Shown: positions 13,578 to 49,406 of the stretch, piece after piece
Position numbering within the stretch: position 1 is the stretch's first letter
Layout: each line of letters opens with the position of its first letter
Source of the DNA: Verrucomicrobiota bacterium
GTDB taxonomy: Bacteria > Verrucomicrobiota > Lentisphaeria > JABSQK01 > JAJFLO01
Reading direction: 5' to 3'
NCBI GenBank assembly: GCA_021772675.1
Contig: JAJFLO010000068.1
Coordinates: 1-64,000 of the forward strand
DNA: 64,000 nt
Notes under the pieces: generated by a model
Seen by the model: only the letters and a program-made list of their open reading frames with translations
Told to the model about the DNA's origin: nothing
Database searches by the model: none
Position numbers and translations under genes: made by a program

Positions 13578-16289
13578 TCATCGTTTTGCTTTTTGAAAAC
13601 GGTCGCGTCGTTGGTCGGTGGTTGGTTTATCTGGTTCTGTTTGAGTGATCTTGTCTTCAACAACCTTTTCGGGTTCTTTAACCTTTTTTTCGGGTTGCTT
13701 TTTAGAGATTTTTTGTGGTTGGAGACTCTGGTTTTTGAGACTAACTTTTGCAAATAGAGTACGAATATTTAAAATAGGTAATTGCCAACCGATGCGGGTG
13801 ACAAGGGTTTCTAGTAAGAAGAGGCATAGGAAGCAGACAAGAAACCAGTTTGATATATCACGTTGGGCCTTTTCCTGAGGGACAGACCAAATATCACTTA
13901 GGTTTATGCGTTCTGTACCTCCGCTGAGATTGGAGAGATGTTTAAGTTCTTTGATCCTGGATTTGTCAAATGACCATTCGGGGTTTGTTCCAGCGACGAT
14001 GGGACCAAATGTTAAGGCGGTATTGCCAAGCTGGACGGCGCCACGAACCCATTGACCGGATTCAAGTTGGGTTGTGCTCTGAAAATGTCCTGGCTTTAGT
14101 CGTTCCCAAATAAGGGTGTTGATTTTTCCAGATTTACCTTCGGACATGAAAATTTCGGGATTAATCTTGTTCATTTTATCGTGCCACGCATCATCATATT
14201 TTAAGTCAAGTGATAAAGTGCTACCGTCGAGTTTTGCTTTTAACCCGATGCCTTCGGGTAACTCATCCCCCATCAACCATCGACTCAAAGTCTGGATGAA
14301 ATCGCCATATCGGTTCCAACTTCGAATTCTGTTTGAATATTCTCCTCCCAATGGAAACGATACTGCCGCGACTCGTCCTATACCTCTCTGCCAATAAGCC
14401 AACAACGGCGCATTGTATTCATCGGCTGATGATATAGCTACATTCGCTTCCTCTCTGGCATAACTAAGATTGTAACCATCGATTGTGTCTAACCAGTTTA
14501 TAGAACGGGCCGCTAAACCAAGCCAAAGTTGATTTGGGGTAATCTGTACCGGATCTTCAAGAAATGCGGATCGGACAATGGCAACGGTTTCCTGGGCAAA
14601 AAGTGCGGGAAGTTCAACGGGATCTGAATTGAAAAAGATGCGACCATTCCCGCGTTCTGCAATATCTTTTAAAAACTCAGCATCTTTATCATCTTCAGTG
14701 CCCAATCCAATAACGCTGATCGTGCCATTTTCTCTAACGATTTCGGAGATAAGATCTTTATAGTTTCCTGGTTCTTCTGCATCCGCAGCGTCGGCAAATA
14801 GAATAATATGACGTTGCCCGATTGTTGCTTTTTGCAATTTACTCCAAGCGTTAATCAATCCTGTAAACACATAGATTCCACCACCAGCACTGTTGATGCC
14901 TCTAATTGTATTTGAAATACTATTCATGTTTGGTCCCACCTGAGTAAGGGGCACAATTTCATGGGCTTGACTATCAACAGCAAAAACAGAGATAACATCG
15001 TTTGCTCCCAGAAGCTCAACGGAACGCGCAGCACCTTCATTAGCTAGATCCATCTTTGTGACAACTCCAGAGTCCGTCGTGACATGAGCAGCCATACTGC
15101 CAGACCGGTCCATGACAATGGCCATTGCCACCATCAGTTTTCTATGTTCATGTTTTAACTCCATGGATACAGGTAATAATTCATCAATAGCTGAACCGAA
15201 ATAACCACCCGAACCAAAGCTATACTTCCCACCAACCATCATCAACCCACCCCCCTGATGTTGAATATAAAATGGAATGGCGGCAAGAAAAGATTCCGGT
15301 AATTGATATGCAGGTACATTATTCAGAATCAACGCTTTCACTCCAGATAATTTACCGACATTCAATCGGGAAAAATTGTTGATGACTTCCAATTCAAATC
15401 CTTGTTGTTTGAGAACTGCAGCAACCGGATCCCGGGTATAACCAGTTAGCAATAATATTCTTGGACCACTAACCACTTCTAACCAATTTTCGCCACGATT
15501 ATTACCCGGCTTCGTATCGTTTTGTGCTAAAATCTGTACGGAGTATTTATGGGAGCCTGGAACATGTATTCGGTCTGTAAGGCGTAGGACACCTCGGCCG
15601 TCGATTATCTCAACCTTGGTTGTTGAGATTGATTCGTTATCACGAAATATCTCAATCGGAAGTGTCTGATCAATATTTCCTGAAACAACGATTTCGATGA
15701 TATAGGGTTCGCTAAGCTGAGTTTTCTCGGGCACCACAATTTTGTCGATACGAAAATCGACAGCATTTTCATCAGATACAAGGCGATAATCCATCGCTAC
15801 ATTTTTACTGAGGAGTTGCTCGGCTGCATCCAACACTGGATTGGTACTGTAGCCATCGGTTAAAACTAATAGCCTTGATGTCCGATTTGGTTGAAGGCTG
15901 GTTAGAGCCAGTTGAATGGCCAGTTTTGTGCGCGTGTATAAGCCGTTTCCTGAAAACTTTTCCGTGTTGTTATCGCTACGGATAATCGCAATATCGGCAT
16001 AATCGATATAGAAAATACGATCATTTTTTGATTTCGTTTTTTGTAAAATCTTATCCCATTCATTGAAGCTGGCGGGTAACGAATCGGCTGCGGATTGGGA
16101 TCGATCGACCAATAACCAAAGGTCAATCCCTTTGCCTACCAGATTGATACGAGGATGAACCAGATAACCCACCAGGAATATCAAAGATAAACAGCGTAAC
16201 GGCCTCCAGAGTTGTAACGATTTCTGATATATACCCAATGAAATTAGTATGGGAATTAAAATTAACCATTCAGGTGAATTCATAAACAT
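13578..16289 (-). CDS. VWA-domain membrane protein with glutamine-amidotransferase-like segment
   Basis: MDRSGSMAAH MIDAS motif, N-terminal TM, GGGLMMVGGKYSFGSGGY, C-terminal TM. Confidence 0.85.
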   Translation of the reverse strand: MFMNSPEWLILIPILISLGIYQKSLQLWRPLRCLSLIFLVGYLVHPRINLVGKGIDLWLLVDRSQSAADSLPASFNEWDKILQKTKSKNDRIFYIDYADIAIIRSDNNTEKFSGNGLYTRTKLAIQLALTSLQPNRTSRLLVLTDGYSTNPVLDAAEQLLSKNVAMDYRLVSDENAVDFRIDKIVVPEKTQLSEPYIIEIVVSGNIDQTLPIEIFRDNESISTTKVEIIDGRGVLRLTDRIHVPGSHKYSVQILAQNDTKPGNNRGENWLEVVSGPRILLLTGYTRDPVAAVLKQQGFELEVINNFSRLNVGKLSGVKALILNNVPAYQLPESFLAAIPFYIQHQGGGLMMVGGKYSFGSGGYFGSAIDELLPVSMELKHEHRKLMVAMAIVMDRSGSMAAHVTTDSGVVTKMDLANEGAARSVELLGANDVISVFAVDSQAHEIVPLTQVGPNMNSISNTIRGINSAGGGIYVFTGLINAWSKLQKATIGQRHIILFADAADAEEPGNYKDLISEIVRENGTISVIGLGTEDDKDAEFLKDIAERGNGRIFFNSDPVELPALFAQETVAIVRSAFLEDPVQITPNQLWLGLAARSINWLDTIDGYNLSYAREEANVAISSADEYNAPLLAYWQRGIGRVAAVSFPLGGEYSNRIRSWNRYGDFIQTLSRWLMGDELPEGIGLKAKLDGSTLSLDLKYDDAWHDKMNKINPEIFMSEGKSGKINTLIWERLKPGHFQSTTQLESGQWVRGAVQLGNTALTFGPIVAGTNPEWSFDKSRIKELKHLSNLSGGTERINLSDIWSVPQEKAQRDISNWFLVCFLCLFLLETLVTRIGWQLPILNIRTLFAKVSLKNQSLQPQKISKKQPEKKVKEPEKVVEDKITQTEPDKPTTDQRRDRFQKAKR

Positions 16290-16348
16290 AAGACTTTTTT
16301 ACCACGAATTTTCACAGATTGACACGAATAATGATATTTTGATTCATA

Positions 16349-18127
16349 TTAACCACTAAATATTTTTTGCTCCTGCTTAAGGGAATAGTTTCCTAATAGC
16401 AGGCCCAAAATCAATAGTGCCCAGATTGGCCAAAGGGTTTCATGGCGACTGTTTTGAATCGTTAAAGTTTTCACTTTTTCAGCAGAAGGATAGATGGAAA
16501 CAGCTTTCTTGAAATTAGCCTCGCGTACGTCGGCAAAGCTTGATGCACCGTTAAGAAGTGTTTTATTTCCCTGTTTCACGGTAAAAAATCCAGGATAAGC
16601 CGGGGCTCGAAGTAAAGTCTGTTTGGATGGTCTGAATGCTGTTTCTTTGGCGGCTTCAGAGTCGACGGTATTCGAATTATAAATGATTTCTCTACCATCT
16701 GGGTCACAAGCAATTCTGGCTAATTGACTCAGTTCATAATTTCCGGACTCTGCAGCGACTTTTTTATCTCTTGATGATTCTATAAACCGATGAAGCAAAA
16801 TGACAAGCGCAGGTGTTTTCAATGCGTTGCTGTGATGTAAATCAAAATTTATAATCAATCTTTGGATTGAATCATCGCTGCGTAATAGAATCAAAGGTCG
16901 TTTTCCCTGCCAGAGAAGAATCTGATCATTTTTTGTTGTGTTCATGTTCAGTGGTTCAGCATTAATAATTAGACTTTGCCAGTTTAGATCTTCCATCAAC
17001 GGATGATTTTCAGCGATAATTGTCCCAGTCATTGGAAGCGTATTAGTTGAATGTTCAATGAGGAATGAAACACCATTCTGTATGAATTCGGGTGTTTCAT
17101 TACTCTGAAACTCAGTGAAGGTTAAGTCGCTGTCGATTAATGCGTGATTTGGATTTATGTCCTGAAAAACAGTTAGAACCTTCTGATAGAAACTGGCTAA
17201 GGGAGAATCTGAATTGAACTTAATGCCTAATTGTTTCGATTTGGGACGCATGACTGGACAGCGGTCATCCAACGTAAATCTGTCGGGTTCTACGTAGAGA
17301 ACAAACTGATCTATTCCTGTGGGGAAAAATCCGGAAAGCGTCATTGATTCACCGGGATTTAATTGAATCGTATTTTTCTTTTGTTTTTGGTTTTTTGTTT
17401 CAATCCACCAGTTTCTCTTTTGCGGAGTCTGACCATAATTTTTAACAAGCACATTCCATTTAACGGCCTCTTCATTGCGATCAACTTTTAAGCCGGTAAA
17501 TCCACAATTGTCGATGGGATAACCAACGGAGAGATGTTCAATATTTACCGGAAGTGACTGTTTATGGTCCGAAACAAAAATAATATGGCCTTTCTGACGA
17601 ATCATATTTTGGGCGAGGTTGATTGCCGGTAAAAGATCATGATGCCCCTGACTCGGTGTCCATTTTTTTAATGATTGATGCAACTTATTTAGATCATAGC
17701 CGGAATAAAGTGTGCCTTGATTGATATCTGAGGTTATCAGTATCCATTCGGTTTTTGAAGCCGTGTTTTTAAGTTCGCTTAGTCGCTGATTCAGTCGGTC
17801 TTCCAATTCATCTTTAAACGCTGCCATTGATACAGAATTGTCAAGAATGATCACCGCTTTTAATACGGAGTCTGACCGAAGCCACATTGGCTGGATTAAG
17901 AGCCATGTTAGAAGTAGAACAATTAGGAGCTGCAACCAAAGATTTAGCGAATTACGCAGCCGTGTAACTCGACGGCCGGAGATGTCAGGGGGTTCTGTCT
18001 GAGGAAGCAGAAACAGGGTGCTGGTTGGTATTTCATGATAGTTTCGCTGAAGGCAGTGGATAAGAAGTATAATCGGAATACCTATTAGCGTCAGGAATCC
18101 CCAGGGATTTCCAAAGGTCAGGTCCAT
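16349..18127 (-). CDS. BatA/VWA-type membrane protein
   Basis: N-terminal FGNPWGFLTLIGIPIILLIHCLQ, VIILDNSVSMAAF, C-terminal TM; overlaps DUF58 gene by 10 nt. Confidence 0.8.
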   Translation of the reverse strand: MDLTFGNPWGFLTLIGIPIILLIHCLQRNYHEIPTSTLFLLPQTEPPDISGRRVTRLRNSLNLWLQLLIVLLLTWLLIQPMWLRSDSVLKAVIILDNSVSMAAFKDELEDRLNQRLSELKNTASKTEWILITSDINQGTLYSGYDLNKLHQSLKKWTPSQGHHDLLPAINLAQNMIRQKGHIIFVSDHKQSLPVNIEHLSVGYPIDNCGFTGLKVDRNEEAVKWNVLVKNYGQTPQKRNWWIETKNQKQKKNTIQLNPGESMTLSGFFPTGIDQFVLYVEPDRFTLDDRCPVMRPKSKQLGIKFNSDSPLASFYQKVLTVFQDINPNHALIDSDLTFTEFQSNETPEFIQNGVSFLIEHSTNTLPMTGTIIAENHPLMEDLNWQSLIINAEPLNMNTTKNDQILLWQGKRPLILLRSDDSIQRLIINFDLHHSNALKTPALVILLHRFIESSRDKKVAAESGNYELSQLARIACDPDGREIIYNSNTVDSEAAKETAFRPSKQTLLRAPAYPGFFTVKQGNKTLLNGASSFADVREANFKKAVSIYPSAEKVKTLTIQNSRHETLWPIWALLILGLLLGNYSLKQEQKIFSG

Positions 18128-26197: not shown

Positions 26198-28258
26198 TCA
26201 TTTCCCACAGGCAATATAGATTCCTTCTTTATACTCTTTCGTAAAGATCTCAGGTTCATCTAGATAGCTTCGGCTTCGCTTAAGGAATTCCAGGGTAGGG
26301 CCATCATCAGGCCATTTTTGATTGAGATTAGTAAATTTATAAAAACTATCCTGAAATTTTGATTGCATAAGTAACGTTCGGGCATCATTAAATTCAGAGA
26401 TAAGATTGAAAAAATCACCCTGATTGGTGTTTTTTTCAAAAACCTGATAAATTCGAATTCCTTGTGTTTTACCCATCACTTGGACAGTATCTAATTCTCT
26501 AGTCAGTATTTTCTCACTAGAATCAGTGCAGGCTTTTATTAACGCCTCATACGTAGAGCCACTGATAATAATTGGCACATTGTATACTTTACATAGCCCC
26601 TCAAGTCTGGATGCCAAGTTAACTTCATCTCCCAGCACTGTGTAATTCAGTCTGTTTTCAGTACCGACATTGCCAGCGACCAATTTTCCTGTGTTTATAC
26701 CAATACCCATTTTTATTTTTTTGATAGGCGGATTAGCAGTATCGTTGTTGAATTTTTCCAACTCTTCTAACATTTCCTGTGCTGCAGAAACGGCTCTGAC
26801 CACGTCATTCTTTTGATTATCAAGCACTCCAAAAACCGCCATCATCGCGTCGCCAATGTACTTGTCAATAATGCCATGTTGATGTTCAATACACTTACTC
26901 ATATAGGTAAAATATTGATTCAGTAACTGAAGTATTGTTGTGGGTTGAAGACCTTCTGAAAGAGTTGTGAACTCTCGTATATCTGAGAATAGAATCGTCG
27001 CGTATTTTTCTTCCCCCCCCAGCTCTATTTTTCCTTTTAACATCTCTTCAGCAATTTCCTTGGATACAACTTTATCCATTGCGGATCTTACTTGTTCCTT
27101 TTCCTCTAATCCCTGAGCCATTGAATTAAACGAATCTCCTAATAAAACAAATTCGTCATTTGAATTAATGTCCAGGCGATGTTTAAAATTGCCTTTTTCG
27201 ATTTCGCTCGTCGCATTTTGCAGATAACCAATGGGTTGGGTAATTTTCAGTGAAAATAGAAATCCAATTACAATCGCAAGGCAGACACCAATAAACCCTG
27301 TCAATACGATCTTTTTTAGTAATTTCCGCAAAAAGCTTAACTCTTTGTCGAGTGATTTTATGACCAAATATTCAGTTCCTATTTCATTTCGCCCCTTACT
27401 CATATAAGTAATAATTCCAGAATTGGATTCGGAGAGGTCTCCAGCAACAGTGCTCCTAAAGGGCGTAATAAAATACAAAAACCGTTCGTTAAATAGACGG
27501 GTTTCGTTCAGGTCAGATTTTAAATGGAGTTTTTTTGTCTGACGCTTTGACGAAGCCGATATATCCATATTAAATTCCCGGATATATAAGTCATTCTGCT
27601 TCGGGTCGCTGCTCCATTTTGTTGATAGGAAAATCGTGGAACCATTCAAAAAAGCCAGTTCTACACCGCTAATTTCTTTGATCTTCCCAATTGCGTGCTC
27701 AGTAATACGTTTTCCAATACAAACCAAGCCTATCATTTCTTCATTTAAAAAATAAGGATCAATAACGATCTGGTAGAAACTGTCTTCACGATAAATAAAT
27801 CCCAATCCGCTATCTCCATAATCCAGACAATTCCGGAATATGGAGAATTTCTTCAAATCATCGATGACATTTTTTCCGGTGTTGTTGCTCGCAAGAATGT
27901 TTCCTTCAGTATCAGCGACGATGATAAGATCAATATTTTCGCTGAAATAAGAATAAATTTCATCGGTAATGAGATCGTCCCGGGTCGCCTCGTCCATGTT
28001 TTTATCTGTTAATACTTCTTTAACATAAACGTGGCCGATAATTGCATTTGTCGTATCTGATAGTCGTTTAAAACTTTCATCAAGATGGCCTCGGATCATG
28101 TCCTGGGTACTATAGAGATCGGAATGAATGCGTGAGATAAACTGAGTTTCCAGATCATGTTTAACAATCTGGTAGGTAACAAATAACAAAACCAAAAGTA
28201 TTAGTGAGATAATTAAGGTGAGCTTAAACTTAAAAGGAACATACAATGCCTTTTTCAT
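26198..28258 (-). CDS. Class III adenylate/guanylate cyclase with extracytoplasmic sensor and HAMP
   Basis: KYATILFSDIREFTTLSEGL...DKYIGDAMMAVFG; two TM segments flanking sensor; HAMP-like linker. Confidence 0.93.
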   Translation of the reverse strand: MKKALYVPFKFKLTLIISLILLVLLFVTYQIVKHDLETQFISRIHSDLYSTQDMIRGHLDESFKRLSDTTNAIIGHVYVKEVLTDKNMDEATRDDLITDEIYSYFSENIDLIIVADTEGNILASNNTGKNVIDDLKKFSIFRNCLDYGDSGLGFIYREDSFYQIVIDPYFLNEEMIGLVCIGKRITEHAIGKIKEISGVELAFLNGSTIFLSTKWSSDPKQNDLYIREFNMDISASSKRQTKKLHLKSDLNETRLFNERFLYFITPFRSTVAGDLSESNSGIITYMSKGRNEIGTEYLVIKSLDKELSFLRKLLKKIVLTGFIGVCLAIVIGFLFSLKITQPIGYLQNATSEIEKGNFKHRLDINSNDEFVLLGDSFNSMAQGLEEKEQVRSAMDKVVSKEIAEEMLKGKIELGGEEKYATILFSDIREFTTLSEGLQPTTILQLLNQYFTYMSKCIEHQHGIIDKYIGDAMMAVFGVLDNQKNDVVRAVSAAQEMLEELEKFNNDTANPPIKKIKMGIGINTGKLVAGNVGTENRLNYTVLGDEVNLASRLEGLCKVYNVPIIISGSTYEALIKACTDSSEKILTRELDTVQVMGKTQGIRIYQVFEKNTNQGDFFNLISEFNDARTLLMQSKFQDSFYKFTNLNQKWPDDGPTLEFLKRSRSYLDEPEIFTKEYKEGIYIACGK

Positions 28259-39293: not shown

Positions 39294-39725
39294 TCAAGAC
39301 TTTTTCCGGGGTGCACAATAAATCTTTTTCTTTTGTTCTGGACTGGCGGCGGGTCTACCATACTTTCGTAACCCCTTATAATAAGTTTTAGCCATCCGTT
39401 TAGAAACCCCGTCAGCAATACATATATCCCTAAATTCTTCATCTGCTTCTTTTCTATAAGTTCTTGTGTCAAGCTCTTTGTTCCTCATTAGTTGATAAAG
39501 CGCATCATGAACCACGGAAGCACGCATATTTTTCCTAGTATCTGGCACCGGGCCAGAAGGACCGTCCCATGCATATCCTTTTTTGATCGTCAATTTCCCT
39601 TTTTTGTCCAGTTTTATAAATTCTGTATTGATCTTGCGTTCTTGTTTTATTCGTATGTCTACTTCATAGCTTTCTGATAATTGATATTTGTATCCCTTTC
39701 TATAATGAATAAACCCTTTAGCCAT
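39294..39725 (-). CDS. DUF1353-like protein (often phage-associated)
   Basis: LTIKKGYAWDGPSGPVPDTRKNMRASVVHDALYQLMR. Confidence 0.75.
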   Translation of the reverse strand: MAKGFIHYRKGYKYQLSESYEVDIRIKQERKINTEFIKLDKKGKLTIKKGYAWDGPSGPVPDTRKNMRASVVHDALYQLMRNKELDTRTYRKEADEEFRDICIADGVSKRMAKTYYKGLRKYGRPAASPEQKKKIYCAPRKKS

Positions 39726-39798: not shown

Positions 39799-42700
39799 CT
39801 AATTCGTATACAACATCAATAATTGTTCAACAAATACAAGAGATCCGACCCCTCCGAATGGAAAAAGAAGAGCAACCACAACTGGGTTTTGGGTCATAGG
39901 CGCAAATGCACCTTTTTTAAGCGTTTTGATATCATTTATGAAATAGTTTAATCGTTCAATTTCTTTATGATAGGCAGGCGAAGAATGGTCACATTCACCT
40001 ACATCAGCATCCATAACAAAAAGAAGTTTGGCTTTCAGCCAATCAATTACATAACCACGTGCATTTAATGCACTACGTTGTAAATTGATAACACAAAATG
40101 CAGTCATAAGAAAAGCAGCACAAATTGTCACAATCAAAGAAATCGGCCAGTTCCAATTATCAAAATACGATATTCTAGAAATAATCGACAGAAATAAAAT
40201 GAAAAATGGAAATAGGATTAGGCTACCAACTAGCTCCGTTCTACTGGCAATTATCCGAATACTTAACCACGCATCAAGTGCATCAGGACTGTTAAATTTT
40301 CTTAAAGGATGAAAATGATTTATTTTCGGTGTTGGAATCAAATATTTAGTTCGCGTTTCTTCTGGCCATTTATACACCTGCCGGGTAAGTTCAGTAATAA
40401 ACTTCCTACAATCCAGCGCAACGTTAACAACAAAAAATATCAGTAGGACCATGCAAAAATGAAATGATAGGGTAATGATAAAATCAATGGTATCAGAATA
40501 ACTTCCGCGAAAAGGAATCATTGGGGGAGTATACATTCGATCCAGTGGATTTATTATGACGACGTAAAAAATCGCGATAGTTAATAAAAGAGAAAAAATG
40601 CCTTTCAAGCTACATCCCTTCCGAGTGTATTCATACCATAAAAGTCTTACGTGTGTGTCATTCTTTAAATTATTAATGCCCAACTTTTGACCAATCCAGT
40701 TTTTTATTAGCTTAATCTGAAAAAATCCAGCCAAATTATATATTAGAAACGAGAATGAAATTAATAAAGTCCACAGTCGGCTGTTTTTTTTCGTTTTCTT
40801 GTCCTTAACTATTTCTTTTATTTGTCGTTTAAAAACTTGATCAGTAAGGCTGAATTCACTTGTTAATTTCTTATTGGAAATTATGATTTTCAAAACTGAA
40901 AGAATAAAAAAATACAATGCAAAGAAAATGCCAATTAGGCGAATAACTTCCGTGGGCCAAATACTAACGCCTTCAAAGAATAACCACGGCTCACCCTCTC
41001 CGTTCATATACGCTTGATTAACTATGGCAGGTAACCTTATAAAAACGGTCAAGCTTAGCATAAAGAGCATAAGAAACCAGATTGTAAAATTAGCTCTAGG
41101 CAAATTGTCCAGTTGATTTGCTTCCCTAATTCCAAGAAACGTGGCAAGAACGAAAAGAAATAACAAGGTGAGGGAAGTAGGAGAATACCAAATCTTTCTT
41201 TGGAAAGTTTCCAACGAAAGTTCTCCAATACCTTCTAGCTGATCTTTCCTTCTGGGATGAAGGGAATGACTTGAAGCGTCCCCAGGCGTCAGGTTAATGA
41301 TGTCACGTTTTCCTATTTCAAAAATTCTGGGTTGATGCTTGTGAACCACTTTTTCCTTGATTTCGCCAAGGGCAACTAAAATTGCGGTAAAAATAGACGT
41401 TTGGTAACTATACCGAAATGGTGCGATATCTTTTTGATACAGGTTATTTAGTTTAAGACCGTAACTTGAAGCGACAATCATATTTTGTGTAAAGCTAATT
41501 TCACTAGGATCTGCAAGGCGCGCATCGATATCCGTTGTAAAAAAAAGAACATCCGGAAAATGTTCACGTAATGCACGAGAAATAAGTAATTTATCGTAGA
41601 CATCAGATCCCAATATCCCTATAACCCTCACTTTACTATTCGATTCTTGCCTAATTCTATCGTTATGTTCCCTTATTTCGCTAACAATGCGCTGTAAGTA
41701 GTCAATCTGATGGCGACCAGCGGCATGAGTTTGCTTCTGCTGCTGGTTGATATCCCTGGGTTCGTTAGGATAATTTGATAGCTGTTCTTTCAATAAAATT
41801 TCACGTTTTTTTTCTGGAAGTTTTCCATCCAAACCGCGCAAATAACTAAACGTTTTTACACGTTCGTCCGGGGAAATTTCATTGCGGGTAAGTAGTTCCC
41901 GAAACTCTTGGGATTCGAGATATGGATATAAATTGAATTCTCTCCCATAAAATTGAATCGCTGATTTTTTATTCTCAAGCCCCTCATAATGTTCTGTGAC
42001 TACCTTTTTAAAACTCAGTGGTAACAAACGGCCATAAAACGTATCCCATTCGCTAACCAATACGATATGACCTAATTCATTCTTATACTTTAGGAATCCT
42101 CGCCTGGATAATTCTTCCGTTATAGTTTTTGAAAGTGCGGTGTCTGAATGAATCAAAAAATGAAACCGGATCTTAAATTCTGGCGGTATTGAATTTTGCC
42201 AACTGCTATCCCACCCATTTTCGGCGATTTCCCCGTCATATTTAGGGTTGCTGCCTAATAACTTCCAATCAGCAGTCGCAAAGGGAGAATATATGTGAAG
42301 GGTGCTATTGTTATCGTTAGTATATTCATTATATCTTTTTGATACACTTTTTTTTCTTTCATTTGCCTCGTCAACACACTTTTCCGCTTCTTTTAACTCG
42401 TCGTGAGAGTTCTCCACAATTTGTTTTTCATAATCTATTTTTCCCCTGATTTCTATTAACTTATTACACTGCTTCTTGACTTTCTCAAGGTCTCTGCTTA
42501 ACTCTCTTTTTGCGCGTATATATATTCTTTCTATGTCATCTATCACTGCTTCTCTTGATTTTTGACCGCCTAAAATGAATTCCAGATCTTTTAATGCCAG
42601 TTCTCCCAATTCTCCATTTGGTGTAACTGTTGCCTTTAATTCGAGGTATTTTTCCATATAGTCAAGAATCAATCCATGTTTATCGGAAAATTCATTGACA

Positions 42701-43917
42701 AAAAGGCTATCCAGAAAGATGATATCATCATTATTTTTTGCCAGTTCTTCTTTGTAGTAGCTGCATTCTACTTCAACTTCTCCATTTTTCCGCTTTGCAG
42801 CAGCATTTACTTTAGTTAATGCCATGTAAGATTTTATCCGATTTGACTCACTGTCTTCATGATAACAAATCTTATCTAATTTCTTGAATATTTCTATTTC
42901 CTTTTCTTTCAGGTCATCTGCCATCTCAAGACTGAAATCCAGCGAATATCTAATAGCCTTGGCAAACCATTCAACTCTTGATTTTATTTCTTTTACCCCT
43001 TCAAATAAATTAGCTCGCGCATTTTCTAAATCATTACCAATTGATTCTAGTCCCACCAGACGCTCGGAAGTCTTTTTCCTCTCTTCTTCATACCTGATAT
43101 TTGCTACTTGTAATCTGTCTTTCAGTATATTGAACTTTGATAATGCCTCGTCATAGGAAATTTTCGCCATTTTGGAACCGTTGTCATATTCCTCTAAAAG
43201 ATCAACTGCTGCATTCCGCTGCTCTACGACTTCTAGGACTTCTTTTGCCATTTGGGAGAATGAAGTAGATTCTGGAGGGCCAATGATTTTAATGTCGATA
43301 TCAGGCCTATTATCTAAATCCTTACGGATAGAGTTATTGAATTTTCGAAGTTTAATTAGTGATTTCTCGTTAAACAGATCAGCTGGTGGCCAGACAACCA
43401 AAATTGACTCAGGTTTCTGTATGCTATTTCCACCCCCCGTAGAATTGCTCTTTTTATTCACTGACGAAATATCGAGTTTAAACCATTCGAATGGAATTCT
43501 GCGGCCATTTCCGTAACAAAAATAGCTAAGGTGGCTAGCGTTATCTGGTCGATATCCAGTGGCATTTAACGCTGAAAGCACCGCATAACGTCTTCGTATC
43601 CGGCGCTCTACATCCTCCGAATATGGGAGGTTATTGATTAATACTGAAAAAACTAAAACAGAACCGGATCGTTCCCGCCATAGGTCGAGATTTTCATCCT
43701 CCAAAGTATCAAAATCAATAATAGCTTGGTACGGATCCTGCCAAAGTCTGGTAGGTACTTTTTTTTCTTCTTTACCACCATATTCTGTTTTATCGGCCAC
43801 CGCAGGTCTTCGTGACGTCAATGGAGTATGCAGAAGAGCACCTCCAATTACGGCAGCAATTAATAAAACAAGAGTAGGTGCTGGTGAAGAAGAATTGGAG
43901 GATTGAATGCCCAACAT
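39799..43917 (-). CDS. Giant multi-TM membrane protein with coiled coil and ligand-binding-like segment, unknown function
   Basis: 1372 aa; N-terminal TM, long coiled coil, VRVIGILGSDVYDKLLISRALREHFPDVLFFTTDIDARL segment, about 9 C-terminal TM helices. Confidence 0.75.
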   Translation of the reverse strand: MLGIQSSNSSSPAPTLVLLIAAVIGGALLHTPLTSRRPAVADKTEYGGKEEKKVPTRLWQDPYQAIIDFDTLEDENLDLWRERSGSVLVFSVLINNLPYSEDVERRIRRRYAVLSALNATGYRPDNASHLSYFCYGNGRRIPFEWFKLDISSVNKKSNSTGGGNSIQKPESILVVWPPADLFNEKSLIKLRKFNNSIRKDLDNRPDIDIKIIGPPESTSFSQMAKEVLEVVEQRNAAVDLLEEYDNGSKMAKISYDEALSKFNILKDRLQVANIRYEEERKKTSERLVGLESIGNDLENARANLFEGVKEIKSRVEWFAKAIRYSLDFSLEMADDLKEKEIEIFKKLDKICYHEDSESNRIKSYMALTKVNAAAKRKNGEVEVECSYYKEELAKNNDDIIFLDSLFVNEFSDKHGLILDYMEKYLELKATVTPNGELGELALKDLEFILGGQKSREAVIDDIERIYIRAKRELSRDLEKVKKQCNKLIEIRGKIDYEKQIVENSHDELKEAEKCVDEANERKKSVSKRYNEYTNDNNSTLHIYSPFATADWKLLGSNPKYDGEIAENGWDSSWQNSIPPEFKIRFHFLIHSDTALSKTITEELSRRGFLKYKNELGHIVLVSEWDTFYGRLLPLSFKKVVTEHYEGLENKKSAIQFYGREFNLYPYLESQEFRELLTRNEISPDERVKTFSYLRGLDGKLPEKKREILLKEQLSNYPNEPRDINQQQKQTHAAGRHQIDYLQRIVSEIREHNDRIRQESNSKVRVIGILGSDVYDKLLISRALREHFPDVLFFTTDIDARLADPSEISFTQNMIVASSYGLKLNNLYQKDIAPFRYSYQTSIFTAILVALGEIKEKVVHKHQPRIFEIGKRDIINLTPGDASSHSLHPRRKDQLEGIGELSLETFQRKIWYSPTSLTLLFLFVLATFLGIREANQLDNLPRANFTIWFLMLFMLSLTVFIRLPAIVNQAYMNGEGEPWLFFEGVSIWPTEVIRLIGIFFALYFFILSVLKIIISNKKLTSEFSLTDQVFKRQIKEIVKDKKTKKNSRLWTLLISFSFLIYNLAGFFQIKLIKNWIGQKLGINNLKNDTHVRLLWYEYTRKGCSLKGIFSLLLTIAIFYVVIINPLDRMYTPPMIPFRGSYSDTIDFIITLSFHFCMVLLIFFVVNVALDCRKFITELTRQVYKWPEETRTKYLIPTPKINHFHPLRKFNSPDALDAWLSIRIIASRTELVGSLILFPFFILFLSIISRISYFDNWNWPISLIVTICAAFLMTAFCVINLQRSALNARGYVIDWLKAKLLFVMDADVGECDHSSPAYHKEIERLNYFINDIKTLKKGAFAPMTQNPVVVALLFPFGGVGSLVFVEQLLMLYTN

Positions 43918-43969
43918 AACGTTATAATGATACGAATGTAAAAATCATTAAGGAGGATAATGGAATTCT

Positions 43970-46900
43970 TTAATTACCGTTGGCATCGCCAAGGAACATG
44001 ACAGCAGTCTCATAATCTTGAACCGCATCGTTTCGATTATTCATGACAGCCTCAATCATCTCATGAACAATTGTAGACACAAAACGATTTGCCACTTTTT
44101 CGCCATTTACTGCAGAGTCATAAGTAGTTCGTTTCTCTTTCAGTTCTTTTTCCGCTGCTGCTTTCTCATTTTTCTTATCCACTAGCATTTCTTCAGCAGT
44201 TTCCAGTTTTTTCTTTGCCTGCTGTTCTTCTTCGTGCGCCATTTTTAAAATATCTTGAACAGTATCAACAGACTGCTCGGTAACCGGGAGGGGTTCTTTG
44301 GCTTTCGCTAAATTATTTTGGGCAGTTGTATAATTTTCTTTCTCTTTCTCAACTTTTTTTTCAGCTGCCGTCAATTCTCCCTTTATTTTCTTAAGTTTAT
44401 CATCAGCAGTTTTAAGATTTTGTTTGTCTGCTTTTGTCAGATACAAGTCTCTAATTCCCTGAATAAGCTGATTGTGAAAGCGTCGGCTACCGTGAAGAAC
44501 ACCAATAATCAATTCACCAGTAGTATGATAATCCAGTTTTTTGTTCCGTTCGATCTCCTTCAAATTCATTTCTAATAATTCTATTGGTTCCTTTAAATAA
44601 AGCTTTGTAGCATCATCTCGTTTTATTTTCAACTCATTTATTTTTTGTTTTAAGAACTCATTTGTCATCCACGCATCTTCAAGTCGTTTTGGTAGCGATT
44701 CACCTAATAGTTCAACAACCAATTTCCCATCTTTAGCGGTTTGTGTATTATATGCGATTTCATATTTTAGTAGAAGAGATTCAAGTTGTCCTTTTGAGGA
44801 CTGACCATTATCCGATTCGCCATTGGCACCTTCTTTCTGAGCCTCCAATATCCGGCGATTCAGATTTATTCCCATTTTTCCACTTAATCCCAACAGAGCA
44901 AGATTTTTCGCTGATTCGATAATCGGTTTCGGATCGGCGCTGTACGATTTTACATACCAGTTACCAATATCATCTTTAGCAACGACATAATTGGTTTTGC
45001 CGCCACCGGCAACGCGCACTCGATTCACGTTCTGCCAAAACTGTTTATCGATGTCCGTATTAATGAGGTTACTGGTATTTTTATTCGGATTTAACAGTCC
45101 ATGCCACCGTGCAGCAAAAGGTAGACTCCTCGCTCCCTGTTGACCGAGCATATTGTCCCAGGACAAGTTTGGATCGGATTGCAATGACGTCGAGGGATAA
45201 CTGGTTCTTAAATATGACGAGGCTGGACGTATATGAACCATATTCGCTCGATGTGCATAAGCCGCGTTGAGTGCAGCCGCTATATGCTTAGCACGTCCTT
45301 CCTTTGCTCCACTTTCCCGAACTGCCTGGACATGCTCATAGCGAAGAGCAGCAATCAAGGCATCCGTGACATCTTTCGCATTATGGTCATCCTCTTTTAA
45401 TCCGAAATTAGCCAGATCAATCGGATCAGTAGGGGCTTCGCGACCTTCTAAAGAAATGGCAGCATCACCATAGATTTTTATTGTTTTGTCGGCAGATTCC
45501 ATTTCTGCTTTTGTTTTTGATTTTTCCGCTTCCGCTTTCGATTTTTCTGTGGCATCATTATTTCGAATCGCAACTACCAATCTTGCCTCTGCCTTAATTT
45601 TTTCACTTTCCGCTTCACTTTTCTCACGTTCTGCTTTTGTTTTGCGCTCATTGATCAGTCTGCGAATCCGTGAATATACATCGCTGGGTATACCACCGGC
45701 ATCCGTGGTATCGATCTCCTCCAATAAATCATATTGTATATTCTGAACTGCTTTTACTGCATTCACTTTTTTCGCTTTTTCCCCAATAGACGTATTTAAT
45801 TTTTCTTGTGCATTTTTTAAATTTGCATCAGCTATTGATTTCTCAGATTTCTTTACCTCCAATGTTTCTAACGCCCGGCCCAAATCCGTCTTTTCTTCAA
45901 TCAAATTATCAGCAAGTGGTTTGATTTTATTTTCAACTTTGCCAAAACTTCGTTGCAATCGTTTAATAATGCTGTCAATCGCCGTGTCAGAATCCATTTT
46001 TATATTATCATTTAACGATTTAGTTATTACCATTAAGTTTAAATAATCGATGGCATCCGGAATATTTTCCAGATCAGGTAATCCACTTGAGTTTAATCGA
46101 GGTTCCAGTAAATCCTTCATTTTTCCAGCGATTTTACGTTCAGTATAGGTTATTATTTCCGTTTGTGCGTCTTCATCGTCGCTGTTGTTAACCAATGCTG
46201 CGTCATCTTCTCGGATTCGTTTTTTTAACTCATGCACGATTTCTTCAATGAAATACGACTTAGCATTAATAATAATTTTGTGTTTTGACTTTAACCCTTT
46301 TAACTGTTTTTCTAAGTCGTCAACTTCTGCTTTGGCTTTTATCACGTTTTTCTCAGCGTCAACTTTGGCTTTCTGTGCAACCGCCTTTGCCTCTTCCATT
46401 TTTTTCTTATCTACAGTCAATTTTTCCGCTTTTTCATTCGCATCAGTCACATCTTGTTCTAACGACTTAATAAGATTGTCAAGAGTAATTTTGGGATCAA
46501 TTTTTAGCGATCGCTTCAACGCTTCTAATTCCGTCGCATAGTGATCCTTGAGCTGTTTTTTGTATCCTTTGACAGTTATTAATTCGTTTGCCTGTGTCAA
46601 AATAGAATTGCCAACAGCTTGGAGTACTCGAATATACGAATCTTCATTACCAGGTGGAGTTGACTTACCGAATAATAAACTAAGACTGGAATCCAAAGTT
46701 TTACCTACGATTCCGCGAGCACTTAAATTCATCACATCGCAGACTGCTCCATTCTCATTGGTGCCTTTTTCATTGGTGCCTTTTTCATTGCCCAACAGTC
46801 CGCGGCGAGTTATATCTACTGTATTGTCCAATAGTCCTTTTTCTTCCAGAGGCGAAATAAGCGTCGTATAATTGGCAATTGGCAGAAGCTTTGATGCAAA

Positions 46901-48694
46901 CCGAATTAATGCATTGATTAATTGCTCTTGTTTAATATGAATGGAATCTCTATTCTGATAGGAACTATTTAGATAGCTTTCAATTAGTGTTTCCAGACCT
47001 AGATCAAGCCGTCCCCTTTCCAATCCATGTTTGAAACCAGACAAGGTATTGCTAGCTTGGCTTACGACTTTAGCTGCATCAAATTCTGCACTAGGTCCTA
47101 CTGAAATACCAAATGCTCGTTTAATTGCTGAAGTAAAACTTTGACCGAGACCGGCATTCTGAATTATATTAGCATTATTTAAAAGGTGGTTAGATTTAAA
47201 AAACGAATGGGCGGATTGAAGAGCAATGGCCGTCTCATATGGACGTTGAATAATTTCATGGATCACCGCATCTCTATATACATTAAATATAGGACTATCC
47301 GTATCCCATTTTCCACTGGCATCTCTAATCGGTTTGGTTTGAACAATAAAAAATCCATCTATTGGAATACTTTTCTGTAAATTTCTACTTAAATTCACTA
47401 ATTCCTTAGGAACATTTCGGCTATGTGTTTCAGCAACGGATAACACTGTAGCTAGATCGCGGAGATTAATTATTTCTACAACAAATTCTGCGGGATGTTG
47501 AAACACACGCTTCATTACCTCTGAGTTTGCCTTTTCTCTGTAGTTGAGGCCAGTTTTTTCGATGCCAACTAACGTTGCCTCCAACAAATTTTCGATGGAT
47601 TGGCGACTTTTCATGAATGAAAAGGCAATCTCGATGACCCGTTGTTCAAAATGTTTCCTTTCTTTTTGAATATTTGAATTTTTTTTACAATTGAAGAGAT
47701 ATTTCGTATGATTCTCGACAATGGAAGAATCAGTCAATGCCTTGAAAAAAGCATTCGCACTTCTGTCTATTTGATTGTCATTGAATGTGCCAAATACATT
47801 TTGGGGGGCGAGAATATTGTCTTTATTTAGATATATCATTTCTTGAGCTTCAATAATCTTTGAATCATAACGAAAACCATCTCTATTGGTGAAAAAATTG
47901 CGATAACCAATAAACAACTGTGCTTTAACTATCTGTTGAATTAATTGGTCGATCTCTATCTGAGCGTTGTTTCCTTCAGATTCTTTTTCCATTGCATTGC
48001 CATGTTTTTCTTTCCCTTTTCCAATCCCTTCGACTTCTAACTTTTTAGCCTCTAGCATTAGAGATTTGGCGGCCTTAGATAAATTGTTTCTATAATGTTT
48101 CTTTATTTTTAATTCTTGCTTCCAAAGCTTAATATTTTCCTCAACTGGTTCATTGATAAAATAATCACTACACATACTATTTTTAAATGAATTAAATTCT
48201 CGCTCTCCTTCTTCTGATGATGGTTCTCCAAAGATTCGCCATTCTTGTCTAAAATTGTACAATGCTTGACGACCATCATCAATAACTTGTGTCAATCGGG
48301 TGGATTTGTCCTCATAAAGATATAAAACCGAATTCATTCTATTTGCATTTTCATCATAAAAATAACTTTGCCCATCAATGGTAGGTATATGGCGAGCTTT
48401 ATATCGATCTCTATCTTTCTTAATGTCTACAAATGGAACCATGGAACCGCTATTTTTTAACTCTTTTCTTTTTTCAATTTCTAATTCATCACGGACTTGA
48501 ATTAGCAATGGTTTCGCCCCAATAGCCATAACCGCCATTTGTTCAATCTGTACGTCTTCATGATTTGCCAAACTTCCTTTATAAACATCGACATCAACGG
48601 TTAATACAGCACATCCTACCCCCATAAGACATGATCCTGTTATCGTAATGATGCTTAGTCTTTTTATGATATTTTTTCCTAAAAAATTAGTCAT
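43970..48694 (-). CDS. Giant coiled-coil lipoprotein, unknown function
   Basis: Start chosen at ATG after GGAGGTGGACA; lipobox-like ITGSCLMGVGC; long Glu/Lys/Ala coiled coils. Confidence 0.75.
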   Translation of the reverse strand: MTNFLGKNIIKRLSIITITGSCLMGVGCAVLTVDVDVYKGSLANHEDVQIEQMAVMAIGAKPLLIQVRDELEIEKRKELKNSGSMVPFVDIKKDRDRYKARHIPTIDGQSYFYDENANRMNSVLYLYEDKSTRLTQVIDDGRQALYNFRQEWRIFGEPSSEEGEREFNSFKNSMCSDYFINEPVEENIKLWKQELKIKKHYRNNLSKAAKSLMLEAKKLEVEGIGKGKEKHGNAMEKESEGNNAQIEIDQLIQQIVKAQLFIGYRNFFTNRDGFRYDSKIIEAQEMIYLNKDNILAPQNVFGTFNDNQIDRSANAFFKALTDSSIVENHTKYLFNCKKNSNIQKERKHFEQRVIEIAFSFMKSRQSIENLLEATLVGIEKTGLNYREKANSEVMKRVFQHPAEFVVEIINLRDLATVLSVAETHSRNVPKELVNLSRNLQKSIPIDGFFIVQTKPIRDASGKWDTDSPIFNVYRDAVIHEIIQRPYETAIALQSAHSFFKSNHLLNNANIIQNAGLGQSFTSAIKRAFGISVGPSAEFDAAKVVSQASNTLSGFKHGLERGRLDLGLETLIESYLNSSYQNRDSIHIKQEQLINALIRFASKLLPIANYTTLISPLEEKGLLDNTVDITRRGLLGNEKGTNEKGTNENGAVCDVMNLSARGIVGKTLDSSLSLLFGKSTPPGNEDSYIRVLQAVGNSILTQANELITVKGYKKQLKDHYATELEALKRSLKIDPKITLDNLIKSLEQDVTDANEKAEKLTVDKKKMEEAKAVAQKAKVDAEKNVIKAKAEVDDLEKQLKGLKSKHKIIINAKSYFIEEIVHELKKRIREDDAALVNNSDDEDAQTEIITYTERKIAGKMKDLLEPRLNSSGLPDLENIPDAIDYLNLMVITKSLNDNIKMDSDTAIDSIIKRLQRSFGKVENKIKPLADNLIEEKTDLGRALETLEVKKSEKSIADANLKNAQEKLNTSIGEKAKKVNAVKAVQNIQYDLLEEIDTTDAGGIPSDVYSRIRRLINERKTKAEREKSEAESEKIKAEARLVVAIRNNDATEKSKAEAEKSKTKAEMESADKTIKIYGDAAISLEGREAPTDPIDLANFGLKEDDHNAKDVTDALIAALRYEHVQAVRESGAKEGRAKHIAAALNAAYAHRANMVHIRPASSYLRTSYPSTSLQSDPNLSWDNMLGQQGARSLPFAARWHGLLNPNKNTSNLINTDIDKQFWQNVNRVRVAGGGKTNYVVAKDDIGNWYVKSYSADPKPIIESAKNLALLGLSGKMGINLNRRILEAQKEGANGESDNGQSSKGQLESLLLKYEIAYNTQTAKDGKLVVELLGESLPKRLEDAWMTNEFLKQKINELKIKRDDATKLYLKEPIELLEMNLKEIERNKKLDYHTTGELIIGVLHGSRRFHNQLIQGIRDLYLTKADKQNLKTADDKLKKIKGELTAAEKKVEKEKENYTTAQNNLAKAKEPLPVTEQSVDTVQDILKMAHEEEQQAKKKLETAEEMLVDKKNEKAAAEKELKEKRTTYDSAVNGEKVANRFVSTIVHEMIEAVMNNRNDAVQDYETAVMFLGDANGN

Positions 48695-49406
48695 TGTCCA
48701 CCTCCCGGGAATTTGGAATATCAGCTTGTACATCTTTAGCAAACTCATTAAGCCGCTTTCGTTCATTCGTAATGTTCGATAATGCCTTAAATAACAGTGT
48801 ATTGAGTCTGGAACTATTTTGTTCGCTTATGGCTTTAGAAATAGTTCCAATCGACGTATCGATTGCATTAAAAAAGTCTTCGGGACTTGATCCCATTAAT
48901 ATTACCAATCGATGATCCTTTGGTGCTTCCCGGAAGCCCTCTGGACCGAAAATCATGAGCCGACGTCCAGTAGGAATCGCGCCGGCCACCTCACCTTCGG
49001 CCCTTGTTATCGACACGTTACCTGAACCGTCCTTAAATCCAACTTGTGAACCAAGTGTATCGATCAAATCCGCACGTACCCACCCCGAGGCAAACTTTTT
49101 GAAACTCAGGAAACTGGCCTGTCCCCGAACCCGAACCCGATAAATCGTATCCGGTATTTGTTCCTGAGGATCGAATACGCCAAGATAGTAAACCTGCTCA
49201 ATTTCATTATTTGGTGAGTAGGATCCGTAGACCGTCGCTGCGGCAATCCCAAGAGCTAAATTTTGTTCAGGTGTGGAACACCCTATCAGGAATAAGATAT
49301 TCAGCAGTGCGGCAGTATAGATAATCGTTTTTGTTAATGTAAATTCTCGAATTCGTTCAACGAATCTGTCAGGATTGAAAGGAATATTAATATTTTTTAC
49401 AATCAT
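48687..49406 (-). CDS. Small lipoprotein partner, unknown function
   Basis: Lipobox-like LLNILFLIGC; overlaps next gene by 8 nt; start chosen at internal Met. Confidence 0.65.
   Translation of the reverse strand: MIVKNINIPFNPDRFVERIREFTLTKTIIYTAALLNILFLIGCSTPEQNLALGIAAATVYGSYSPNNEIEQVYYLGVFDPQEQIPDTIYRVRVRGQASFLSFKKFASGWVRADLIDTLGSQVGFKDGSGNVSITRAEGEVAGAIPTGRRLMIFGPEGFREAPKDHRLVILMGSSPEDFFNAIDTSIGTISKAISEQNSSRLNTLLFKALSNITNERKRLNEFAKDVQADIPNSREVDND

Follow-up and report, generated by a model that had tools for sequence, protein, structure and literature searches.

A Verrucomicrobiota locus encoding a predicted Venus-flytrap membrane protein of possible insect-chemoreceptor-like architecture, beside a conserved lipoprotein pair

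The odorant and gustatory receptors of insects (OR/GR; Orco, MhOR5, BmGr9 and Gr43a) are 7TM ion channels (7TMICs), a class to which PHTF and DUF3537 also belong and for which requirements on topology, inner-loop length and a split S7 have been laid down (PMC9998090, PMC11100771). BmGr9 and Orco are described with long S2, S4 and S6, a short S3 and a split last helix (PMC9998090, PMC11100771), and global similarity within the class has been taken as a TM-align score of about 0.6 or more to Orco/OR/GR together with a Dali Z above 10 (PMC9998090). Surveys from 2020 and February 2023 reported no 7TMIC in prokaryotes (PMC7746228, PMC9998090). In a passage of a 2024 review that cites Himmel et al. 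2023 (Curr Biol, doi 10.1016/j.cub.2023.10.008), several lines of evidence are said to support a eukaryote-to-prokaryote transfer (PMC11526382), and bacterial 7TMICs as such may therefore already be reported. No account of a 7TMIC fused to a Venus flytrap was found in the literature searched. Flytrap and membrane domain are joined in one chain in the ionotropic glutamate receptors and class C GPCRs, an arrangement that is predicted also for the protein described here.

The locus lies in a stretch of 64,000 nucleotides (hereafter the window) from a draft genome of 7.3 Mb with a GC content of about 38%. Of the named genomes with which the GatB of this genome was compared, those of Verrucomicrobiota came nearest (51% and 50% identity). 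Three minus-strand ORFs, which follow each other 5' to 3' as P3, P2 and P1, bear out the three same-strand genes, the protein sizes and the 8-nt P3/P2 overlap given in the initial annotation. The P2 start is preceded by GGGAGGTGG. About 53 nt separate P2 from P1, and a further 73 nt or so separate P1 from a DUF1353 gene on the same strand, which is possibly in the same transcript as P1. The longest possible ORFs would give 1598 aa for P2 and 287 aa for P3; the shorter forms listed below, which follow the earlier choice of starts, are supported by the homologues of both proteins, which begin near the lipobox. The features are as follows.

48687..49406, minus strand: P3, 239-aa lipoprotein with Cys43 at 49278-49280, conserved partner of P2 (Anammoxibacter homologue, five-genome alignment, 11 Nitrospiraceae genomes)
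43970..48694, minus strand: P2, 1574-aa coiled-coil lipoprotein (homologues directly behind P3; heptad pattern)
48479-48613, minus strand: conserved N-terminal motif of P2, GCAVLTVDVDVYKG
44891-45334, minus strand: conserved core of P2
39799..43917, minus strand: P1, 1372-aa putative membrane receptor, divergent member of a family of about 1050 aa
43822..43884, minus strand: N-terminal membrane anchor of P1, aa 12-32 (hydropathy)
43225..43752, minus strand: first part of the predicted P1 Venus flytrap, aa 56-231, with RLWQDP and GP..S (AF2 model of the reference member L035, Foldseek, alignment)
42274..43224, minus strand: coiled-coil insertion inside the flytrap, about aa 232-548 (alignment gap comparison, heptad pattern)
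41320..42273, minus strand: second part of the predicted flytrap, aa 549-866, with SEWDTFYG, RGLDG, GSDVYDK and PFR..YQT (invariant columns, fold)
39802..41214, minus strand: predicted C-terminal membrane domain of P1, a TM0 re-entry helix and seven S1-S7-like helices (AF2, Foldseek, topology)
39925-39978, minus strand: S7a-like helix of P1 (AF2)
39805..39885, minus strand: last helix of P1, S7b-like, proposed pore helix, aa 1345-1371 (AF2; high S7b conservation)
39294..39725, minus strand: DUF1353 (phospholipase-A2-type) gene, next downstream of P1 (Pfam)

Elsewhere in the window are a 686-aa protein with HAMP and adenylate/guanylate cyclase domains and a weak Cache-like sensor match (26198-28258, minus strand) and a VWA/BatA cluster (13578-18127).

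No convincing family match was obtained for P1, P2 or P3 in Pfam, NCBIfam, PHROG or PADLOC. Matches of P1 and P2 to SpiroCoCo / SEC10-PgrA surface exclusion (19.1 of 125 and 21 of 70 bits) stayed below the curated cut-offs and covered coiled-coil stretches only. The earlier statement that no known family applies is thus accurate as far as sequence libraries go, yet P1 falls into one family and the P3/P2 pair into another that have so far gone unnamed. The locus is more than a chance assembly, since P1 can be matched along its length to a family present in at least 80 genomes and P3 and P2 occur together in 14. Viral contigs contained no relatives of the three proteins, for which reason a viral origin was rejected; a plasmid search returned none for P2 and P3 and a single doubtful, partial match for P1.

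Peptide patterns built on the whole of P1 had no match in the genome contigs. A 91-aa segment of the flytrap, taken where a Rossmann-like stretch had been called, retrieved 91 relatives from them, 80 of which were kept. Most of these loci encode a protein of about 1050 aa, and phmmer matches extend across the whole of P1. On sequence grounds P1 is a divergent member (30% identity to L035 in the alignment) of this uncharacterised family, for which Pfam and NCBIfam hold no model; over the flytrap part of the 62 members scanned, none of their models matched more than a single member. The family spans Nitrospirota, Pseudomonadota, Planctomycetota, Verrucomicrobiota, Acidobacteriota and records titled Deltaproteobacteria. 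Its Pseudomonadota members include many Nitrosospira and Nitrosomonas, Nitrococcus and methanotrophs, and its Planctomycetota members two anammox genera. Nitrifiers and anammox bacteria account for nearly half of the relatives' loci (L002-L081), and methanotrophs for several more. One record titled Nitrosospira (L030, CAADGJ010000067.1) falls within Nitrospira in the P1 tree and has Nitrospira-like neighbours; given that position and the isolate name NOB2, it is probably mislabelled.

Of the 118 genomes sampled from the Nitrospiraceae, to which Candidatus Nitrospira defluvii belongs, 81 carry P1, often in two copies. In a search through 149 genomes from the window's relatives, P1 turned up in one, the window's own (G000), so that the gene has a patchy distribution there and may have been transferred. 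In the tree the position of the window's P1 is insecure, on a long branch next to a Phycisphaeraceae row. No neighbourhood of P1 conserved across genera was found. The neighbours that recur in Nitrospira look like simple synteny, and genes of 700-1100 aa upstream of other P1 loci were rejected as P2 homologues by phmmer and by reading.

What P1 looks like was approached by structure prediction. An AlphaFold2 model of L035, built with 62 sequences, was confident (pLDDT 85, pTM 0.85), and in a Foldseek search of the PDB its N-terminal half matched the type-I periplasmic-binding fold, best with 8wch (E 3.7e-7), followed by 4mlc (E 9e-6), 8tg1, AmiC and animal flytrap receptors, CaSR, mGluR3, GABA-B and GluN chains being listed via this domain. 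The window's P1 aligns to the same conserved flytrap blocks. On this modelling we regard a type-I (Venus-flytrap) domain in P1 as nearly certain, although no member of the 62 scanned had a sequence match to any Pfam family of the fold. The Rossmann-like segment that the initial annotation took for half of a periplasmic fold (LGSDVYDKLL..FFTTDLDARL) falls in the second lobe of the predicted domain, so that this reading stands. With the described type-I binding proteins (SAR11_0655, 8wch; Desulfitobacterium SBP, 4mlc; AmiC, 1qo0) the P1 family shares the two-lobe fold and the block order; it differs from them in that the flytrap is tethered to the membrane at both ends, carries the novel motifs RLWQDPF and GSDVYDK and has no ABC transporter link. 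P1 departs from ionotropic glutamate receptors in lacking a type-II binding domain and a P-loop pore, from class C GPCRs in a membrane domain that does not match GPCR folds, and from both in being bacterial. One feature sets the window's copy apart from all others among the 62 aligned: 321 residues lie between two conserved flytrap blocks, versus at most 84 in the other rows, and this insertion of about 320 residues is heptad-patterned.

For the C-terminal part, hydropathy across the family points to a single N-terminal helix and a further eight beyond the flytrap, and the window's P1 has an additional weak hydrophobic stretch; the count of about nine TM helices made earlier was therefore right. 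If the flytrap lies outside, TM0, the first of these eight helices, is predicted to re-enter the cytoplasm, and the other seven to start inside and end outside, S7 running from in to out. The positive-inside rule is strongly followed, with 7-9 K/R in the three main inner loops versus 0.4-1.2 in the outer loops, and in L035 the inner loops measure 72, 48 and 54 residues versus 22, 11 and 12 for the outer ones. In the L035 Foldseek search the flytrap dominated, and insect OR5 (first of these; E 0.005, prob 0.97), Gr43a and Gr9 also appeared; for this reason the window's C-terminal domain was folded alone (pLDDT 78, pTM 0.76). Among 350,542 PDB chains, ranks 1-9 for this model were all insect gustatory or odorant receptors (BmGr9, Gr43a, OR5-Orco and Gr64a), AgamOR28 took ranks 11 and 13, and other folds followed with low probability.

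These matches are weak, with E values of 0.012-0.2, none passing 0.001, and Foldseek TM-scores of 0.23-0.37. TM-align to Orco gives about 0.6-0.96 for accepted 7TMICs and 0.08-0.34 for unrelated membrane proteins (PMC9998090), values that are not strictly comparable with those of Foldseek. The predicted topology and charge distribution fit the 7TMIC plan. The AF2 models have long S2, S4 and S6, a short S3 and a split last helix. In 7TMICs S4-S6 reach into the cytoplasm as an anchor; the corresponding helices of the window's model have 41, 36 and 48 residues, followed by an S7 split into a cytoplasmic helix of 18 residues and a membrane helix of 27, and L035 shows the same S4-S7 pattern with S5 broken. 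Inner loops are long, S5 is among the long helices and the C-terminus is predicted outside, as in 7TMICs. S5 and S7b are the best conserved of the helices, and conservation is also good in each of the three outer loops, which would fit coupling to the flytrap. Unlike the accepted members, P1 is bacterial and has an extra TM0 and a large periplasmic flytrap in front, and its TM-scores are below those published for the class. No P1 gene was listed when a 7tm_7 profile was run over 44 genomes, other sequence-level tests linking the membrane domain to 7tm_7 or any known family were likewise negative, and a link to 7tm_7 at the sequence level was rejected accordingly. The TYhhhhhQF motif is not recognisable in P1; it is also absent from many accepted members (PMC7746228, PMC9998090).

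How are these observations best read? The weak scores and negative sequence tests, together with the hydrolase neighbours of P1 described below, would suit a flytrap receptor that has no channel, in which an independent helical fold passes ligand binding on to a partner in the cytoplasm, or transports a substrate, for example a lipid, and resembles the insect receptors through convergence on long-helix bundles. Type-I flytraps serve many kinds of output in bacteria, which counts in the same direction. We consider this unlikely, though, in view of the specificity of the matches, where the first nine ranks belong to insect receptors, where two different models point the same way and where no rival membrane fold competes; helix number, direction and lengths and the split of S7 all agree with the 7TMIC plan as well. 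Our modelling thus makes a 7TMIC-like fold of the P1 membrane domain probable. That P1 is a ligand-gated channel is a serious possibility on the same models, if a little short of an even bet. Only tentatively would we suggest that the insect chemoreceptor channels have true homologues, fused to a Venus flytrap, in several bacterial phyla, with nitrifiers and anammox bacteria as the notable carriers.

The other two genes make up a separate pair. It occurs in 14 genomes: the window's, that of Candidatus Anammoxibacter, and those of 11 Nitrospiraceae and the Nitrospirales NPIRA01, which came out of a search through P1-bearing genomes and Nitrospiraceae. In Anammoxibacter the P2 homologue (identity about 37%) stands directly behind that of P3 (about 53%), and the following gene is a DUF900 hydrolase. 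P2 homologues range from 1251 to 2016 aa; the longest, from NPIRA01 (L101:2974-9024, minus strand), has a large extra middle stretch that by eye is repeat-like and may be a beta-solenoid. In an alignment of five genomes the lipobox cysteines, C43 of P3 and C28 of P2, are invariant. The evidence supports a conserved pair of envelope lipoproteins, and the lipobox anchoring proposed at the outset can be retained for P3 and P2; P1 has an N-terminal membrane anchor and no lipobox. Weak P3-like matches in the window's phylum (G303, G380) were unconvincing.

Seven Nitrospiraceae loci continue from the pair into a protein of about 260 aa, an alpha/beta hydrolase (DUF900 where tested) and a lipoprotein-like second hydrolase, and most of them further into a small protein and a large 'HGIGEQ' hydrolase; the operons of L133, L135, L099 and L100 run through this whole series. 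In one Nitrospiraceae locus (L141) P3 and P2 look broken (149 aa; 350 + 355 aa), and the hydrolase genes that follow remain. A 1070-aa gene behind one P3-P2 operon was considered as P1 and is not P1.

Whether the three genes belong together is less clear than the pairing of P3 and P2. P1 adjoins P3/P2 only in the window and is encoded apart elsewhere among the genomes examined, including those with all three, and many genomes have P1 without P3. It could thus be that the P1 receptor and the lipoprotein system of P3 and P2 are independent, and neighbours by chance in one genome. P1 is present in each of the 11 Nitrospiraceae genomes that have a strong P3, versus 81 of 118 overall, an association whose p of 0.013 is uncorrected for genome size or shared ancestry and so leaves independence some room. 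Against it, the window genes are tightly packed on one strand, P1 has gained its coiled coil exactly where it adjoins the coiled-coil P2, and one hydrolase family stands beside both P1 and P3-P2: a gene two ORFs before P1 in NPIRA01 shares 51-57% identity with the HGIGEQ hydrolase encoded in the Nitrospira P3-P2 operon. Independence therefore strikes us as rather doubtful. The single three-gene system first envisaged is accordingly upheld only in part, for the P3-P2 pair; P1 is linked to it indirectly, by the shared hydrolase neighbour and by co-occurrence in Nitrospiraceae, adjacency being confined to the window. Trans-envelope sensing, likewise proposed, is supported for P1, whose polytopic membrane domain is predicted to carry a ligand-binding fold in the periplasm; for P2 and P3 the evidence bears out envelope lipoproteins.

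Hydrolases also occur around P1 itself. The DUF1353 gene downstream of it scores 30.6 bits in Pfam (cut-off 22.5), and the only PDB match of its product, which is not significant (E 0.33), is to a phospholipase A2 with a common HD..Y pattern. One DUF1353 protein is a proven phospholipase A2 (PMC11525133); given this and the phospholipase match, the PHROG label 'tail assembly chaperone' for the gene is doubtful. The window gene shares domain and HD..Y pattern with such TtaP-type enzymes (PMC11525133), and differs in its genomic setting; its product is a candidate phospholipase A2. By motif or phmmer, lipase-like neighbours were found at seven of the 80 P1 loci, with patatin at L019 and L075, a DUF2235-like gene at L075 and alpha/beta hydrolases at L017, L023, L035, L043 and L072. 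Together with the hydrolases of the P3-P2 loci, they hint at a link to membrane lipids.

Lipases beside a receptor also bring to mind a conflict or abortive-infection type of system, in which P1 would sense an envelope signal and the lipases, or a membrane pore, would be the effectors. The patatin, DUF2235-like and alpha/beta hydrolase genes near P1, the P3-P2-DUF900 operons and the DUF1353 gene of the window are compatible with it, but the window proteins have no PADLOC match, the lipase-like neighbours are confined to so small a share of P1 loci, and frequent, often two-copy presence in Nitrospiraceae is more like that of a sensory gene. We think such a system quite improbable.

We propose instead, with a probability of roughly 0.45, that P1 is a ligand receptor of the envelope, and possibly a ligand-gated channel, which works with lipoproteins and lipases. 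What speaks against this reading is the low TM-scores and negative sequence tests, the adjacency of P1 to P3/P2 in the window alone among the genomes examined, and the small number of P1 loci with lipase-like neighbours. P1 would reside in the inner membrane, where its periplasmic type-I flytrap would bind a small ligand and close; closure would act through the conserved periplasmic loops on the C-terminal seven-helix domain of 7TMIC plan. S7b, the last helix, would line the pore, and ligand binding would open it or modulate ion conductance. In the window genome, the coiled-coil insertion that is unique to this flytrap probably meets the coiled coils of P2 in the periplasm. The output of the receptor may bear on membrane lipids, judging from the hydrolase and lipase genes around P1 and P3-P2. 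The ligand, the channel activity, the P1-P2 contact and the lipid link are all things that we infer.

Should the membrane domain prove to be a 7TMIC, this large family of bacterial proteins would bear on the origin of the channels with which insects smell and taste, and, if the proposal is true, a flytrap-gated channel would be open to tests in simple bacteria. Even without a channel, a flytrap receptor for which no family model exists, carried by about 70% of the sampled Nitrospiraceae, would be a missing piece in how these organisms sense their environment, and the same gap extends to the ammonia oxidisers, anammox bacteria and methanotrophs that carry the P1 family.
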